Shown here: piece by piece, positions 25,235 through 44,357 of the stretch
How positions within the stretch are numbered: position 1 is the stretch's first letter
How the letters are laid out: every line of letters starts with the position of its first letter
Assembly: GCA_003696105.1 (NCBI GenBank)
Contig: RFGE01000190.1
Coordinates: 1-47,540 of the forward strand
DNA length: 47,540 nt
Reading direction: 5' to 3'
Source: Deltaproteobacteria bacterium
Lineage (GTDB): Bacteria > Myxococcota_A > Polyangia > Haliangiales > J016
Made by a program: the position numbers and the translations under genes
Notes under the pieces: model-generated
The model's input: the letters and a program-made list of their open reading frames with translations, nothing else
What the model was told of the DNA's origin: nothing
Database searches by the model: none

Positions 25235-25250
25235 CGGCACAGGGATTGCG
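25235..25250 (+). promoter_or_regulatory. sigma-54-type promoter of the MYXO-CTERM/haem-lipoprotein operon
   Basis: CGGCACAGGGATTGCG: the -24 GG (25236-25237) and -12 GC (25248-25249) are separated by exactly 10 bases, and GGCAC and TTGC match the consensus. Initiation near 25261 leaves a leader of about 45 bases with a CAGGAG site before the ATG at 25306. Confidence 0.6.
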
Positions 25251-25305
25251 ACAGCACGGGCTGCAAGTCATCCCACCAGACCAACGCCGGGTCACAGGAG
25301 CTGCC

Positions 25306-27039
25306 ATGACGTCCAGACTGAATCCCTTCTTGATTGCCGCCGCCGTGGGTATCCCGGCCGCGGCGGTCGCGGCCCCGCACGTCGATACGATGCTGGTCCG
25401 CGACGGCTACGACGCAGGCGAGACGCGCCGCGACGAAGACGGCCGCGACCGGCCTCGCCGCGCTGTCTACCCGGGCGGCGAGCAAGCCCAGCTCGCCCAG
25501 CTCGCGTCGGGCGAGATCTTGATGTTCGGAATGGGCTCGTACCGCCTCAACGGCGAGCTGCCCAACCACCGCAACCAGATGTTCTGCGCTTCGATCAAGA
25601 TGGACCCGGTCCTCGGGCCGCAGCTGCAGAACCTCAAGTACGTCACCAACAACCAGGGCGACCGCTACCGCAACGCGCACCACCCGCGCGTGACGCCGAT
25701 CTTCAACGGCGAGGCCGTCGCGGTCACCTACAACTACGCCCCGAACAACCACGCCTACGCCTATCAGTTGGTGTTCGGCCCGAACTGCGAGCAGTTGTCG
25801 GAGCGTACGCGCATCGTCGCCAAGAACAACGACAACTGCAGCGAGACCGGCCAACACCCGGAAATCGTGACGTATCAGGACGCCACGACGACGCGCCTGT
25901 TCTCGGCGCACGGCTGCAACGGCAACGGCAGCGACGACTCGTGGGCCGCCATCACGGAGATCCGCAAGAATCCCGACGGCACCTACACGGTCGAGAAGAT
26001 CACGGACGACATCCGCACCGAGCGCGAAGAGGAGCGCAGCCGCCCCGACGTGCTCGCGACCAACATCCCGGATCTCGCCGTCGTGTGCCTCACCGCGGGC
26101 AACACGCAGCCGCCGAACCGCGGCGTGTACTGCTCGGGCTACGACACCCAGACCGGCGAGCAGCTGTGGCGCATGGCCGTCGCGAAGAAGGAAGACGGCA
26201 TCTACCGGACGCAGATTCGCGCCACCCCGATCCTCGACGCGGCCGGCAACCCGACCAACAAGGCGTACGTGACCTGGCAAGAGCTCACCAAGCGCCGCCG
26301 CAAGGAGAAGGGCACGGCGAAGATGATGGCGTCGGTCATCAGCTACGACCGCAACGGGATGAGCATCGAAGCCGTCCCGCAGACGGACATCTTCCCGGGC
26401 GGCGACGCGACGCACGCGAGCCAGTGCTCGACCCTGTGGGGTGAGGACGGCGCCGCCGAGTCGCGCATGGTGCTCATCAGCGGTTCGATCAACGGCAACG
26501 CGTCGGCCCTGTCCACCGCCCACGTCGTGGGCTGGAACGACCTCGAGCGCAAGCTCACGCACGTCCGCAAGATCGGCCTCGCCGCCGCGATCGACACCGG
26601 CTGGCTGTCGAACCTGTACGGCGAGAACCCGACGACCCAGGGCCGCAACTACATCCAGTGCATCGGCAACGTCCGCAACCCGGGCTACGGCGTCACCGGC
26701 GGCTATCAGCCGGACGTCCGCTCGTTCGTCGCGATCGCCGCGCACACTCGCCGCATCGACCCGACGACCGGCGCCCCTGAGGAGAAGCTGGCGACCGAAC
26801 TCGTGCTCATCCCGGCCGTGACCGCGCCCGCCGCGACCCTGCCTCCCGACGAGCCGAACAACGACCCGGACCCCGAGCCCGAGCCCGAGCCGAACCCCGA
26901 GCCGCAGCCCGACCCGGACCCGGCGCCGACGCCGACCGCCGACATGGCCGGCTGCAGCACCACCGGCACCACGTCGGGCGCCGCGACCGCGCTGCTCGTC
27001 GCCCTGGCTCTCGGCCTGCCGCGCCGCCGCCGCCGCTAA
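25306..27039 (+). CDS. secreted protein with MYXO-CTERM sorting signal
   Basis: 577 residues. It has a signal peptide (TSRLNPFLIAAAVGIPAAAVA). The large mature part is beta-rich with propeller-like blades, such as YDTQTGEQLWRM (which recalls PQQ-type repeats) and EAVAVTYNYAPNN; this fold is an inference. An Asp/Glu/Pro-rich stalk (DPDPEPEPEPNPEPQP) leads to the C-terminal signal: a small Gly-Cys motif (MAGCSTTG), one hydrophobic helix and a poly-Arg end (GLPRRRRR). That tripartite tail is the MYXO-CTERM signal, processed in myxobacteria and leading to surface attachment. It is the first gene of a probable operon with two haem-motif lipoproteins. Confidence 0.85.
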   Translation: MTSRLNPFLIAAAVGIPAAAVAAPHVDTMLVRDGYDAGETRRDEDGRDRPRRAVYPGGEQAQLAQLASGEILMFGMGSYRLNGELPNHRNQMFCASIKMDPVLGPQLQNLKYVTNNQGDRYRNAHHPRVTPIFNGEAVAVTYNYAPNNHAYAYQLVFGPNCEQLSERTRIVAKNNDNCSETGQHPEIVTYQDATTTRLFSAHGCNGNGSDDSWAAITEIRKNPDGTYTVEKITDDIRTEREEERSRPDVLATNIPDLAVVCLTAGNTQPPNRGVYCSGYDTQTGEQLWRMAVAKKEDGIYRTQIRATPILDAAGNPTNKAYVTWQELTKRRRKEKGTAKMMASVISYDRNGMSIEAVPQTDIFPGGDATHASQCSTLWGEDGAAESRMVLISGSINGNASALSTAHVVGWNDLERKLTHVRKIGLAAAIDTGWLSNLYGENPTTQGRNYIQCIGNVRNPGYGVTGGYQPDVRSFVAIAAHTRRIDPTTGAPEEKLATELVLIPAVTAPAATLPPDEPNNDPDPEPEPEPNPEPQPDPDPAPTPTADMAGCSTTGTTSGAATALLVALALGLPRRRRR

Positions 27040-27069
27040 CCCCGCCACGCCTATACGAAGGAGCATCTG

Positions 27070-27972
27070 ATGTCCTGGCGCACACTCACTCACACACTCG
27101 CCTCCGTGGCGCTGCTGGCGACGGCGTGCGCGGGCGAGCTCGAGCCGCTGAACCCCAGCGACCCGGAGCCGCCCACGCCGCCGCCGAGCGGCAGCCCGGA
27201 CGCGGGCGTCCCTGAGCCCACGGGAGACGATCCGTCGGTCCTGTTCTCCACGAACGTCCAGCCGATCGTCGCCCGCTGCGCCGGCGAAGCCTGCCACACC
27301 GGCGTCGGCACGCCGCTGAAGTTCCTCGGCTCGCCGTCCCCGGACGACGACTACGAGAGCATCACGGCGTTCCCGTCGGTGACGGGCAACTTCCAACCGG
27401 CGCTCGCGAACATGCTGTTGAAGATCGACGCGGGCGGCCACTACGGGCAGTCGTATACCCAGGCCGAGCGCGATGCGATCGTCGCCTGGCTGCAGGCCGA
27501 GAGCAGGGTTCGCGCGGACGCCGACGACGACGGCGAGCCCGACCCGCCGCCCGCGTCCACCAACGCGTTCGCCGAGTGGTCTGGCTGTATGACCAAGGCC
27601 AACTGGGATGCCGCGCAGATGGGCGACTGGGCCGACAAGCGGGCCGAGGGCGGTGACACCTGCTCGACCTGTCACGCCGACGGCGCGTTCCGGTTCAACA
27701 CGAACCCGACCAACGACACGATGTTCACCATGAACCGGACGGAGCTGTACATCATCGGGTTCTTCACGGTGAAGGTGAACGCCGACGGCAGCCAGCAGGT
27801 CATCCCGGCCTACGACAAGCTCGAGCGCATGGGCAACGGCTCCACCCTGCACCCGCGCTTCGACTACGGCCCGGACGACCCGTACTTCCAGCGGCTCGCC
27901 GAGTTCCATCAGCTCACCGAGCAGACCAAGCTGGCCGGCCAATGCGGCCCGGCTCAGTTCCCCACCCCGTAA
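27070..27972 (+). CDS. two-domain haem-motif lipoprotein
   Basis: 300 residues; a lipoprotein signal ends LLATAC, and GAAGGAG precedes the ATG. Domain I (about 55-145) starts VLFSTNVQPIVARC and contains CAGEACH (a CX4CH variant), then KFLG and a closing DAIVAWLQAE helix. Domain II (about 165-300) contains EWSGCM, NWDAAQMGDWADK and CSTCHADG, a CXXCH haem c motif. Domain I is similar to the protein at 43932 and domain II to the next protein. A periplasmic or outer-membrane c-type cytochrome role is likely for domain II; haem binding by the CX4CH site is less certain. Spacing and strand suggest cotranscription with 25306. Confidence 0.82.
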   Translation: MSWRTLTHTLASVALLATACAGELEPLNPSDPEPPTPPPSGSPDAGVPEPTGDDPSVLFSTNVQPIVARCAGEACHTGVGTPLKFLGSPSPDDDYESITAFPSVTGNFQPALANMLLKIDAGGHYGQSYTQAERDAIVAWLQAESRVRADADDDGEPDPPPASTNAFAEWSGCMTKANWDAAQMGDWADKRAEGGDTCSTCHADGAFRFNTNPTNDTMFTMNRTELYIIGFFTVKVNADGSQQVIPAYDKLERMGNGSTLHPRFDYGPDDPYFQRLAEFHQLTEQTKLAGQCGPAQFPTP

Positions 27973-27993
27973 CCCCTACCGACACGGAACCCC

Positions 27994-28572
27994 ATGCGCT
28001 CGCTGGCCCTCCTCGCCGTACTTGTCGCCCCCTCGGCCTGCCTCCAGTCGGAGTTCACTCCGGTGGATCCGGGACCGGACGCCGGCACCGCGCCGCAACC
28101 CGACGCCGATGTCGGCGGCGGCGAGCCCGACGCGGAGCCGGTGAACGTCGACCCGCTGGCCGAGTGGTCGGGATGTATGAACCTGACGAACTGGGATGCG
28201 TCAGGCATGGCGACGTGGGCCGACAAGCCGACCGAGGGCGGCACGGTGTGCTCCTCGTGTCACGGGGACGGGCTCGCGCGGTTCTTCGCGAACACCGACG
28301 ACACGTTGATGTTCACCTACAACCGCTACGAGACGTTCATCACGGGGTTCTTCACGATCGGTACCCGCCCCGACGGCACGGTCGACATCGTCCCGGCGTA
28401 CGCCAAGCTCGACCTCAAGGGCGGCGGCGCCAACAACCACCCCACCTTCGCCGTCGGCGACGCCGACCCGTACTACCAGGCGCTCGAGACGTTCTATCAG
28501 CTCACGCTTCAGCGCCGGCAAGCGGGCCTGTGCGACCCCCCGGGGTTCCCCACGCCCACTCCGAACCCGTAG
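27994..28572 (+). CDS. single-domain haem-motif lipoprotein
   Basis: 192 residues with a lipoprotein signal (RSLALLAVLVAPSAC) and a Pro/Asp/Ala linker. The domain repeats domain II of the preceding protein almost motif for motif: EWSGCMNLTNWDASGMATWADK, split by one residue change each, then CSSCHGDG (CXXCH), NRYETFITGFFT, and a C-terminal QAGLCDPPGFPTP. The extra conserved Cys pair (SGCM and GLCDPP) probably forms a disulphide. It is the last gene before a strong terminator. It arose by duplication of its neighbour or of an ancestor. Confidence 0.82.
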   Translation: MRSLALLAVLVAPSACLQSEFTPVDPGPDAGTAPQPDADVGGGEPDAEPVNVDPLAEWSGCMNLTNWDASGMATWADKPTEGGTVCSSCHGDGLARFFANTDDTLMFTYNRYETFITGFFTIGTRPDGTVDIVPAYAKLDLKGGGANNHPTFAVGDADPYYQALETFYQLTLQRRQAGLCDPPGFPTPTPNP

Positions 28573-28620
28573 TCTGAGACGTTACACTTCGCGCGGCCGC
28601 GCGCCGCCACCTGCCCTCCC

Positions 28621-28654
28621 CGCCCCGAGCGCTCTGCTCGGGGCGTTTTCTTTT
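28621..28654 (+). terminator. intrinsic terminator of the MYXO-CTERM/haem-lipoprotein operon
   Basis: A 10-bp perfect stem (CGCCCCGAGC, 28621-28630, with 28636-28645) and a 5-base loop, followed by TTTTCTTTT. Confidence 0.9.
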
Positions 28655-28677: not shown

Positions 28678-29718
28678 CTACAGCGGGTCGGGCTCGTCCG
28701 GCGGCGGAGGCGGCGGCTCCGTGAACAGCGCGAGCGCCTGCACGGGCGTGTTCGACGGCCCCAGCACGATCTGGCCCGACGACTGCGGGTTCGCGACAAA
28801 GTACGCCTGTTCCAGCGCCGCCCGATCGAGGCGCGCGACCTTGCGCTCGTCGTAGATCAGATCCGCGGCCTGCACGGACGTCACGTCGACGCCCTGTTTG
28901 GCCAGATACGGCAGCAGCTTCCAGCGCAGCTCGCCCGCGTCGGTGCGCTCGGCCAGTTTTTCGGCCCCCGCGAGCATCCGCCGCTTGATCCACACCGCGA
29001 GCCGGTCGTCCTTGTAGACGCGGATGCCGCCGCGCATCGGCTCGCCGTAGTACGGAATGCCGTCGATGACCTTGCCGTCGAGCAGCGTATCCCCGTTGTC
29101 GCTCACGTCCGGCGGACGCTTGTCGATGTACACGCACACGGCCGCGATGTGGTCGAACGTCGTGCTCGTGCGCAGGTCTTCCGGGAAGTACACGAGCGGC
29201 TTGCCCGACGTCTCCGAGCCGAAGCCGAAGTACAGCCGGTCGCGCACGCGGCGCAGTTCGGGGCCCGAGATCTCGGCGACGAAGTGGTTGCCGCCGTAGA
29301 TGTGGACCGCCTTGACCCGAGCCAGGTCGACTCCCGCCGCCTCGAGGTACTCGGCGAGCCGGTACCGCCGCACCTTGATCTTCTCCTCGCGCGGTCCCGG
29401 CTGGCCGGCGCGGAAGTCGAGCATGCGCACGTCCTCGAGCCACACCGGCCGAAGCTTGGCCGGCAGCTCGCCGAACCACAGCACGCCGATCGGCACGCCA
29501 TCGACGTAGACGCCCGCGTCGCGCCACTTGCGCCCGCCGCGCTTGTACTCCGCGGGGACCCACTTTGCGTTGGCGCGGTGGTGCCCGGATACGCCCGCAA
29601 ACGGCGCAGCGTCGGCGGGTTGCGCCGCAGCGGGAGCCTTGCGCGGCGCGTCGGACTTCCCGGAGCACGCGGCAGCGACCAGACAACACACGGCGAGGGA
29701 TGGACGACAGCGTGGCAT
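28678..29718 (-). CDS. predicted lipoprotein of unknown function
   Basis: 346 residues. The signal ends LVAAAC. The mature protein looks globular and mixed alpha/beta, with segments such as VPIGVLWFGELPAKLRPVW, VKAVHIYGGNHFVAEISG and VVYIDKRPPDV-like strands (CVYIDKRP), and ends in a Pro-rich tail (TEPPPPPPDEPDPL). The motif IYGGNHFVAEI could suggest an oxidoreductase molybdopterin-like or SH3-type domain, but this is not a recognised match. It is divergent from the next gene; TATACT lies 12 bases before its ATG. Confidence 0.7.
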   Translation of the reverse strand: MPRCRPSLAVCCLVAAACSGKSDAPRKAPAAAQPADAAPFAGVSGHHRANAKWVPAEYKRGGRKWRDAGVYVDGVPIGVLWFGELPAKLRPVWLEDVRMLDFRAGQPGPREEKIKVRRYRLAEYLEAAGVDLARVKAVHIYGGNHFVAEISGPELRRVRDRLYFGFGSETSGKPLVYFPEDLRTSTTFDHIAAVCVYIDKRPPDVSDNGDTLLDGKVIDGIPYYGEPMRGGIRVYKDDRLAVWIKRRMLAGAEKLAERTDAGELRWKLLPYLAKQGVDVTSVQAADLIYDERKVARLDRAALEQAYFVANPQSSGQIVLGPSNTPVQALALFTEPPPPPPDEPDPL

Positions 29719-29742: not shown

Positions 29743-30240
29743 ATGACACGGTTGACCATCTTCGCGCTAGCACTTTCCGTCTTTTCCGGCGGTTGCGGAG
29801 AGCTCGGCCAGGTCGATTCGCCGCCGGGCGGGGGGGACCCTGGGGATCAACTCCCCGACGGGGTCGCGTGCCAGGCCGAGCTGTCGATCACGGGCACGCT
29901 CACGCCACCGGGGACCCCGCCGGATCCCGCCGAGGGCTGCGTGCCGGTCGGGACCTGGACCCTGCAGGTCGCGGTCGACGATCCGGGCACCTGCGACCAG
30001 GTCGATCACGAATCCACCTACGTCTACGAGGTGACCGGCGACATCGACAACGGCTACGACGTGACCTACCAGGGCACCCCCGCCGGCGAGGTCTACCTGA
30101 AGATCACATCGGAGGGCGGCGCCTGCCAGGGCAGCTTCGAGCATTACAGCGCCGACGGCAGCGCGCTGCTGCTGCTCAAGCCGTTCGAGGAAAACCTGGC
30201 GATCTCCGGCCGCGGTTACTTCGAGCGCTACGCCGAGTGA
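29743..30240 (+). CDS. small lipoprotein of unknown function
   Basis: 165 residues. The signal ends SVFSGGC. A Gly/Pro/Asp linker is followed by a beta-rich domain with three or four Cys (CQAEL, GCVPV, GTCDQV, ACQGSF), probably disulphide-bonded: GTWTLQVAVDDPG, STYVYEVTGDIDNGYDV and YLKITSEGG read as strands of a sandwich or lipocalin-like barrel. The start follows GAGG by a few bases. It is divergent from 28678-29718 across only 24 bases. Confidence 0.7.
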   Translation: MTRLTIFALALSVFSGGCGELGQVDSPPGGGDPGDQLPDGVACQAELSITGTLTPPGTPPDPAEGCVPVGTWTLQVAVDDPGTCDQVDHESTYVYEVTGDIDNGYDVTYQGTPAGEVYLKITSEGGACQGSFEHYSADGSALLLLKPFEENLAISGRGYFERYAE

Positions 30241-30395: not shown

Positions 30396-30499
30396 CAAGC
30401 AACTGCCGGTCCGGCGTCGCGTTTCGCCTTCCAGGTCGGCGCCGGCGTGGTACGCTCACGGCGAATCGCGAGGCGGTTCGATCCAGAAAGGGGGCGGAC

Positions 30500-31576
30500 G
30501 TGAGTGGCCAGGCGGACGGCGCGGCGGCTGGGGTCGATTCATTGCGCGAGCGCGTGCGCAGCCGCAATCCGAAGATGCAGCGACTCGTCGACTACGCGGT
30601 CGCCGTCGCCAAGACGCCGTATGCGGTGTTGCTCGAAGGCGAGACCGGCACGGGCAAGGAAGTGTTCGCACGCGGCATCCACGCTGCCTCCGGCCGACCC
30701 GGGCCGTTCGTCCCGCTCAACTGCGCCGCCGTCCCCGACACCATGTTCGAGGCGGAACTGTTCGGCGCGCGCCGCGGGGCGTACACGGGGCTCGTCGACG
30801 AGCGTCCGGGCCTGTTGTCCGTGGCCGACCGCGGAACGCTGTTTCTCGACGAGATCGCCGACATGCCATTGCCGATGCAGTCCAAGCTGCTGCGCGTGCT
30901 CGAAGACGGCGAGATCCGCCCGCTGGGCGGCACGCGCTCGCTCCGCGTCGACGTGCGCGTCATCGCCGCCACGCACCGGTTCCTCAAGCCGCTCGTCGAG
31001 TCGGGGCGCTTCCGGCGCGATCTGTACTTCCGGCTGAGCGCCGCGTGCATTCGACTTCCGCCACTTCGCGACCGGCCGGAGGACATCCCGCTTCTGGTCG
31101 ACGCGGCAGTGGATGCCGCCTGCCGCCTGCAGAACGTTCCGCGCTGTTCGGTGAGCCGGGCGGCGATCAACGCGCTGATGCAGCACCCGTGGCCCGGCAA
31201 CATTCGCGAACTGAACAACTGCATCGCCGCGGCGGTCCTGCGCGCGCAAGGCGCTCCGATCACGCCGCCCGATCTGCAGCTGTCGCCGAGCGCGCCGGCC
31301 ATCCGGGCGACGGACGCCGGCGATCGCGGCGACGACGACGACGAGCCGCCGTGGATGCGCGGGCCGTTCTTCGATGCGCTCGAGGCGTTCGAGGCGCGCT
31401 ACCTGCGCTCGCTGCTGCGCGCGTCGCGCGGCAATCTGTCCGAGGCGTCACGGATCTCCGGATTGTCGCGGTCGGCGATCCGCAGCAAGGCCCGCGCCTA
31501 CGGCCTTCTCGGCGACGGCGACGGCGCGCCGGGCGTAGCGGCGAGGCAGCGCGTGCGAAAGCCGCCGCGCGAGTGA
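30500..31576 (+). CDS. single-domain sigma-54 activator (AAA+ plus Fis) without sensor domain
   Basis: 358 residues from a GTG preceded by AAGGGGGCGG. Only some 25 residues precede the AAA+ domain, so there is no receiver, FHA, GAF or PAS input. Walker A is G47-E-T-G-T-G-K53; Walker B is LFLDEIAD; the Arg region is present (RRDLYFRL). The sigma-54-contact loop reads GAYTGL (93-98) instead of GAFTGA. The C-terminal helix-turn-helix (LSEASRISGLSRSAIRSKA) is Fis-like. Without an input domain it may be active whenever expressed or controlled by a partner. A near-consensus sigma-54 promoter lies 140 bases after its stop, in front of the GGDEF gene. Confidence 0.9.
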   Translation: MSGQADGAAAGVDSLRERVRSRNPKMQRLVDYAVAVAKTPYAVLLEGETGTGKEVFARGIHAASGRPGPFVPLNCAAVPDTMFEAELFGARRGAYTGLVDERPGLLSVADRGTLFLDEIADMPLPMQSKLLRVLEDGEIRPLGGTRSLRVDVRVIAATHRFLKPLVESGRFRRDLYFRLSAACIRLPPLRDRPEDIPLLVDAAVDAACRLQNVPRCSVSRAAINALMQHPWPGNIRELNNCIAAAVLRAQGAPITPPDLQLSPSAPAIRATDAGDRGDDDDEPPWMRGPFFDALEAFEARYLRSLLRASRGNLSEASRISGLSRSAIRSKARAYGLLGDGDGAPGVAARQRVRKPPRE

Positions 31577-31715: not shown

Positions 31716-31731
31716 TGGCACGGGTGTTGCG
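31716..31731 (+). promoter_or_regulatory. near-consensus sigma-54 promoter of the c-di-GMP genes
   Basis: TGGCACGGGTGTTGCG matches TGGCACG-N4-TTGC at every defined position, with GG (31717-31718) and GC (31729-31730) 10 bases apart. Initiation near 31742 leaves a leader with CGAGGGGGA before the GTG at 31780. Confidence 0.75.
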
Positions 31732-43900: not shown

Positions 43901-43917
43901 TGGTCCCGGCGTTGCAA
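43901..43917 (+). promoter_or_regulatory. sigma-54-type promoter upstream of the haem lipoprotein at 43932
   Basis: TGGTCCCGGCGTTGCAA has GG-N10-GC and TTGCA; the -24 part reads TGGTCC instead of TGGCAC. The gap to the start codon is only 14 bases. A TATCGT box at 43872-43877 is an alternative. Confidence 0.4.
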
Positions 43918-43931
43918 TGGGCGGACGTGCC

Positions 43932-44357
43932 ATGCGCAGGCTAGCCACAGTGCTCGTCGCGGCTGGCGCCGTCGGGATGGTGGCGTGCGTCGGCGAACTC
44001 ACGCCCGTCGATCCGGCCACCGGCGGGCCGGGCGGCGGGCCGGACGCGGGTCGCGGCGGAGGCGCCACGGAAGCGCGCGACTACTTCGACACCGAAGTCC
44101 AGCCGCTGCTCGCGCTGCCGCGCCCCAAGGGGGCGTGCACCGTGTGCCACCAGGGGGTCGATCCGGGCAACGGTCCAGACTTCCTCGGCGCCGACGCCGC
44201 GGCGAACTACGACGCGCTCACCGCCAACCCGAGGCTCGTGAGCGGCGATCCGGCGACCAGCTTGCTCGTCACCAAGGGCGAGCACGCCGGCGACGCGTTC
44301 GCCCCCGCGGAGATCAGCATCATCAACGAGTGGATCCTCATGGAGGCGGGCCGGTAA
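43932..44357 (+). CDS. single-domain haem-motif lipoprotein (domain I type)
   Basis: 141 residues. The signal ends VGMVAC. After a Gly-rich linker the domain reads YFDTEVQPLLALPRPKGAC and CTVCHQG, a regular CXXCH haem c motif, then DFLG, YDALTANPRLVSGDPA and INEWILMEAG. It matches domain I of the protein at 27070 in order and spacing, with CXXCH in place of CX4CH. A periplasm-facing electron carrier is the obvious reading. The ATG at 43917 is an alternative start. The next gene begins 35 bases later. Confidence 0.82.
   Translation: MRRLATVLVAAGAVGMVACVGELTPVDPATGGPGGGPDAGRGGGATEARDYFDTEVQPLLALPRPKGACTVCHQGVDPGNGPDFLGADAAANYDALTANPRLVSGDPATSLLVTKGEHAGDAFAPAEISIINEWILMEAGR

Follow-up and report, generated by a model that had tools for sequence, protein, structure and literature searches.

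A conserved set of myxobacterial envelope genes with a predicted beta-propeller and a haem-motif lipoprotein, and its molybdenum/tungsten gene neighbourhood

In the usual picture of molybdate supply, the anion enters passively and is then taken up by the importer ModABC. Homologues of ModABC and of the molybdenum storage protein MosAB (MoSto), known from Azotobacter vinelandii and others, flank in many relatives the genes described here, a set named D, A and B. This set was found in a stretch of 47,540 nucleotides from a Deltaproteobacteria bacterium (Myxococcota_A, Haliangiales; GenBank assembly GCA_003696105.1, contig RFGE01000190.1), which as a whole is called the window in the following. 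Gene A codes for a secreted protein with a predicted beta-propeller fold, B for a lipoprotein with haem motifs and D for a further lipoprotein. In the literature searched, MosAB and ModABC are not reported together with any surface propeller, haem lipoprotein or D-like protein, and the window itself is free of molybdenum genes.

Further described systems share single traits with the locus. In Myxococcus xanthus, the cytochrome c domain protein TfcP is encoded together with the propeller-bearing surface protein PilY1, which resembles the pairing of B with A. However, TfcP is soluble, carries a single CXXCH motif with a cysteine as distal ligand and belongs to a pilin cluster, whereas B, a lipoprotein, combines two haem motifs with a distal histidine. 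No match to PilY1 was found in A using Pfam and no pilins were seen nearby; the conserved neighbours of A and B are D, a gene named E and molybdenum genes. MYXO-CTERM proteins like TraA have the same sorting tag as A and share its expected lipid anchoring by a myxosortase, but TraA is a kin-recognition receptor with a core domain unrelated to A. Porin-cytochrome conduits of the MtrCAB type, like B, involve haem proteins at the outer surface, but their multi-haem chains and porin are absent from the module and the family matches are weak.

The conserved D-A-B genes

An earlier note on this DNA, made from the sequence alone, had described an operon of the genes A, B and C and had proposed an extracytoplasmic electron-transfer complex without a named counterpart. 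Promoter, leader, the three open reading frames and the terminator were all found at the places it gave, and the three-gene unit is real. Nevertheless, the conserved lipoprotein D, which lies outside this operon, had been missed. It was found as a third conserved protein by neighbour clustering and synteny. D (28678-29718, minus strand) is convergent with the operon, encodes 346 amino acids in two similar halves and was assigned by synteny, alignment and co-occurrence with A.

Almost all relatives examined have D, A and B as neighbours, and A and B are adjacent wherever the contig permits this to be seen. Homologues of A occur in about half of the related genomes with ∼25–40% identity, the relatives with names being Kofleriaceae and related Myxococcales metagenome-assembled genomes. 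A was found in 52 of 318 genomes of the class, and A and D share the identical 11 of 379 genomes of the phylum, where for A (threshold 1e-8) two extra matches to the linker or tail only were discounted. In other families the genes are ordered D>A>B or D>A>B>B. Gene E (29743-30240, plus strand), assigned by synteny and encoding a lipoprotein of 165 amino acids divergent from D, is kept with the module only in the taxonomic order of the window's genome. Beyond E, many loci of this order carry a membrane-anchored gene F (L033:3516-4214, minus strand, and 13 other loci), which has no Pfam match and is absent from the window.

Gene C (27994-28572, plus strand) encodes 192 amino acids and corresponds to the C-terminal CXXCH domain of B, with 51% identity to residues 147-300. 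It is a local partial duplicate of the second half of B and is not conserved. The three genes of the operon had been expected to co-occur in relatives, which is the case for A and B but not for C. A complex of A, B and C as the conserved unit was therefore rejected, since C merely duplicates part of B. Judged from the sequences, the conserved unit is wider than the operon, including D and usually E, and D-A-B forms a so far undescribed gene set of the myxobacterial cell envelope that is widely conserved. As the earlier note had supposed, no named counterpart was found in Pfam, NCBIfam, PDB or the literature searched (most subscription journals were outside that search).

Molybdenum and tungsten genes in the neighbourhood

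Genes related to molybdenum or tungsten were found near D-A-B, or near B in loci without A, in 37 of 53 loci, which are related and not independent, against 0 of 80 control stretches (1.10 Mb), all taken from the window's own genome. The kinds of genes counted were MosA/MosB, ModABC, EcfT-like and tungsten-enzyme genes. In other families the link was seen in all 13 loci with a single B. The gene order in family f14 is TonB receptor, D, A, B, small cytochrome c, EcfT-like, MosB, MosA, ModA, ModB and ModC. Its MosB and MosA match the beta and alpha subunits of the molybdenum storage protein in PDB with 1e-63 (1e-58 to 1e-63 across the checked loci), ModA (TIGR01256) and ModB (TIGR02141) exceed the curated cut-offs, ModC is ModC-like, and the TonB receptor and the cytochrome c were identified by Pfam. 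The single-B and double-B subtypes are both held by several genomes. Ten of the 11 double-B loci are without molybdenum storage or import genes (L108-L110, L145, L151, L154, L156, L158, L159, and L163).

In the window's own order, MosB and MosA lie directly 3′ of B in nine loci, some of which show MosB alone owing to contig ends, and their MoSto identity was confirmed. The closest relative of the window's B (64% identity) is found in locus L120 with the arrangement B> D< E> EcfT> MosB> MosA>, where MoSto was also confirmed. This is the arrangement of the window plus the molybdenum genes, instead of which the window has a sigma-54 activator gene after E. The closest grouping of the window's A is with L031, which is molybdenum-linked, and L032, to whose clade it forms the sister branch. 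The genetic linkage to Mod and Mos genes that characterizes an acquisition system is hence present in relatives and not in the window.

Two-domain B proteins encoded without A have molybdenum or tungsten genes nearby in 10 of 10 loci, namely aldehyde ferredoxin oxidoreductase (AFOR) in three, MosAB in three, and ModA in four as well as in one of the MosAB loci. The AFOR domain matches reach 1e-85 and 1e-70. In L114, L116, and L119 the gene of the B-type lipoprotein is divergent from that of the tungsten enzyme AFOR and adjoins an acyl-CoA ligase-like gene. A copper type II monooxygenase-like gene lies beside B and ModA in L128 (6195-7283, minus strand), with homologues in L129 and L131. Directly 5′ of a B-type lipoprotein gene, locus L130 (9130-10875, minus strand) encodes a MYXO-CTERM-like protein that has five CXXCH motifs and weakly resembles MtrC.

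The gene neighbourhood suggests that D-A-B is an envelope module for the acquisition or handling of molybdate or tungstate, its function being tied to molybdenum or tungsten. We give this reading a probability of roughly 0.45. The module probably includes a haem redox step. The haem motifs and the surface sorting of the earlier proposal are supported. Its electron-transfer complex is incomplete, as the neighbourhoods in relatives point to the acquisition or use of molybdenum or tungsten. The data do not decide between these two. The module could be a consumer of the metal rather than an importer, i.e., a molybdenum- or tungsten-dependent or -partnered envelope oxidoreductase in which B passes electrons; the role of the storage and transport genes would then be to provide the metal. 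The vicinity of A-less B to AFOR in three genomes, to the copper monooxygenase-like gene with ModA in others, and in one g66 genome to the five-CXXCH MYXO-CTERM protein with ModA speaks for this. However, A, B and D carry no molybdopterin family signature, and the clusters of the other families consist of uptake and storage genes without a molybdenum enzyme among the identified genes, and we regard a consumer as unlikely. It is very improbable that D-A-B has an unrelated surface function like adhesion or carbohydrate binding and merely shares its region with the molybdenum genes. Such a chance neighbourhood would agree with the double-B subtype, which lacks these genes in 10 of 11 loci, and with sialidase, integrin and lyase propellers being the best folds for A, but the link recurs across gene orders and families and accompanies B alone in every such locus.

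The encoded proteins and their regulation

Gene A (25306-27039, plus strand) encodes a protein of 577 amino acids, in which a core of ∼480 residues follows a signal peptide and is joined by a linker rich in Pro and Asp to a MYXO-CTERM tail. A myxosortase cleaves proteins of the MYXO-CTERM class, which are then placed on the cell surface, their lipidation being predicted (PMC11980579). The tail matches TIGR03901 with 28 bits (cut-off 20) and comprises the Cys motif, the hydrophobic helix and the Arg-rich end that go along with the N-terminal signal in this class. A Cys/Arg tail was found in 48 of 50 A homologues, one of which (L044) has a disrupted C-terminus, while the other two are cut by contig ends. 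The supposed surface sorting is thereby supported by all complete homologues.

The AlphaFold2 model of A, built with 31 homologues, is all-beta with a predicted local distance difference test (pLDDT) of 85.2 and a predicted template modeling (pTM) score of 0.89. A beta-propeller fold is predicted, in agreement with the shape proposed earlier, and ∼28 main strands suggest seven blades. In a Foldseek search with the model, the propellers of sialidase, integrin-alpha and rhamnose-glucuronate lyase scored best with TM values of ∼0.4–0.5, but at ∼10% identity, a high root mean square deviation and without a family match. The core has no Pfam match in the 24 members scanned and no PDB profile match. 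A PQQ or quinoprotein propeller, as considered before, was rejected, since neither a PQQ family nor a propeller family nor a PDB profile was matched. Within its own order, A has a conserved NGNG-x-DD loop, which resembles a calcium loop.

Gene B (27070-27972, plus strand) encodes a lipoprotein of 300 amino acids with an N-terminal CX4CH domain and a C-terminal CXXCH domain (AlphaFold2 pLDDT 83). The model has no fold match in PDB, and the profile of B gave only chance matches there. In 35 aligned members, the residues Cys173, Cys198-x-x-Cys201-His202, His261, and Cys292 of the second domain are invariant. It thus has the CXXCH motif and the distal axial ligand of a c-type cytochrome and almost certainly binds one haem c, with predicted His/His ligation and an additional disulfide. 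Stand-alone copies of this domain were also found elsewhere. Haem binding by the first domain is only probable, because the spacing of its motif CXnCH varies among homologues, with n being 2, 3, 4, and 5 in 41, 2, 13, and 3 cases, respectively. The CX5CH form (CNPGGACH, CSPDGACH) occurs in the B proteins of L038, L039, and L012, whereas homologous domains have CX2CH to CX4CH. Cytochrome c assembly genes are present in the genome. The haem motifs reported earlier were recovered, with CX4CH and CXXCH in B and CXXCH in C, and of the two supposed lipoproteins B is one; C has an atypical lipobox (APSA-C) and, as a copy of part of B, is not independent. Far from the operon, a single-domain lipoprotein (CTVCH; 43917-44354, plus strand) is related to the first domain of B.

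A general system of extracellular electron transfer, i.e., a surface redox conduit unrelated to molybdenum, is distinctly unlikely. Apart from the haem motifs, some members of B show weak matches to MtrC/MtrF-like and cytochrome c families (best E 1e-4 and 3e-5), but each B would hold at most two haems, no outer-membrane porin-cytochrome partner was seen, and the linkage to molybdenum and tungsten genes would be left unexplained. Even less probable is a helper function, in which B stabilizes the propeller A or loads it with calcium without transferring electrons. A precedent exists in M. xanthus, where the cytochrome c TfcP aids PilY1 (PMC8833165), and the calcium-like loop of A would fit, but the full NGNG-x-DD loop is lost in other families, the likely distal ligand in B is His and not Cys, and A is not PilY1-like according to Pfam.

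The protein D has the invariant residues Lys173, Arg229, Arg233, Arg246, Asp73, Asp189, and Asp237 and no conserved cysteine beyond the lipobox. It matched no family, and its profile search against PDB gave only chance matches.

Upstream of A, a sigma-54 -24/-12 promoter element CGGCAC-N5-TTGC (CGGCACAGGGATTGCG) is located at 25235-25250 (plus strand). It is followed by a predicted leader with an AGGAG ribosome-binding site (25261-25305, plus strand), the start of which was placed 12 nt past the -12 GC. The operon ends with an intrinsic terminator (28621-28654, plus strand) of a 10-11 bp GC stem and TTTTCTTTT, the fold of which has a z-score of -3.47, with 0 shuffles being equally stable. The window contains two copies of the pattern YGGCAC-N5-TTGC (0.34 expected) and the genome 46, compared to 21 genomic copies of the reversed control pattern. 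Taken alone, the element is only mildly unusual and is weak evidence. It was accepted as strong due to its phylogenetic footprint: a match of at least 7/10 was found upstream of A in 20 of 23 relatives (1.7 expected), and 12 matches of 9/10 in the same scan (0.05 expected). Within 200 bp of the A genes of the own order, 9/10 was reached in 12 of 21 cases (0.14 expected) and at least 8/10 in 16 of 21 (0.7 expected), whereas a control scan upstream of B was near background (3 vs. 0.79 expected). The distance from the -12 GC to the start codon of A is 29-86 nt in relatives. In other families with D first in the operon, the element precedes D in 11 of 18 cases (0.66 expected). With the conserved GG-N10-GC core and rpoN present in the genome, the unit is placed under predicted sigma-54-type promoter control, as had been proposed.

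A palindrome-like sequence TGTTTCAC-N4-GTCACA lies exactly 53 bp 5′ of the -24 element in six relatives (L033, L035, L036, L041, L042, and L048, the copy in the last being degenerate). It is a candidate activator binding site, located where one would be expected, and is missing from the window. The sigma-54 activator gene just past E (30489-31576, plus strand) encodes an AAA+ domain (Pfam Sigma54_activat, 1.7e-59) and a Fis-type helix-turn-helix. It was rejected as a conserved part of the module, since no match was found near the module in relatives, and is a possible regulator of it. Just 3′ of this gene, there is a second strong sigma-54-like element (TGGCACGGGTGTTGC; 31716-31730, plus strand).

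A proposed role in molybdenum or tungsten handling

Several points weigh against a role in molybdate or tungstate acquisition or handling. The link of the module to the metal consists of gene neighbourhood, which is not function, and it is not universal: 16 of the 53 loci are without molybdenum genes nearby, and among the double-B loci of other families it was seen in 1 of 11. As in the window, no molybdenum gene was found in 1.10 Mb of the remaining genome (21% sampled). The control is restricted to this one genome, with related loci on the other side of the comparison, so that its Fisher p-value gives no more than an indication. In addition, the varying motif makes the first haem of B uncertain, and the oxyanion role of D is a guess.

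If D-A-B does serve the acquisition or handling of these metals, A would be lipid-anchored outside the outer membrane and its propeller would present a binding face. The conserved Arg and Lys residues of D would bind an oxyanion, for instance molybdate or tungstate, and the haem redox step of B would free, convert or keep available the metal species, which would then pass to ModABC and be stored by MosAB. Sigma-54 would switch on D-A-B under limitation. MosAB is beneficial under molybdenum limitation in Azotobacter (PMC6448029), which fits a cluster responding to limitation. A more specific version, which we hold to be doubtful, is a surface system of a so far unknown type, in which the haem redox lipoprotein and the lipid-anchored propeller obtain molybdate or tungstate from the surroundings, e.g., by release from minerals or complexes, and feed ModABC and the MosAB store, while the double-B subtype acts on another substrate.

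To our knowledge, the route by which scarce molybdenum and tungsten cross the bacterial outer membrane is poorly known. If the proposed role is true, the propeller, the haem lipoprotein and D would provide a testable outer-surface step beside MosAB and ModABC. Three unnamed protein families would gain a function, and haem would have a use in metal acquisition. For the Myxococcota, the module is also a likely member of the sigma-54 regulon.

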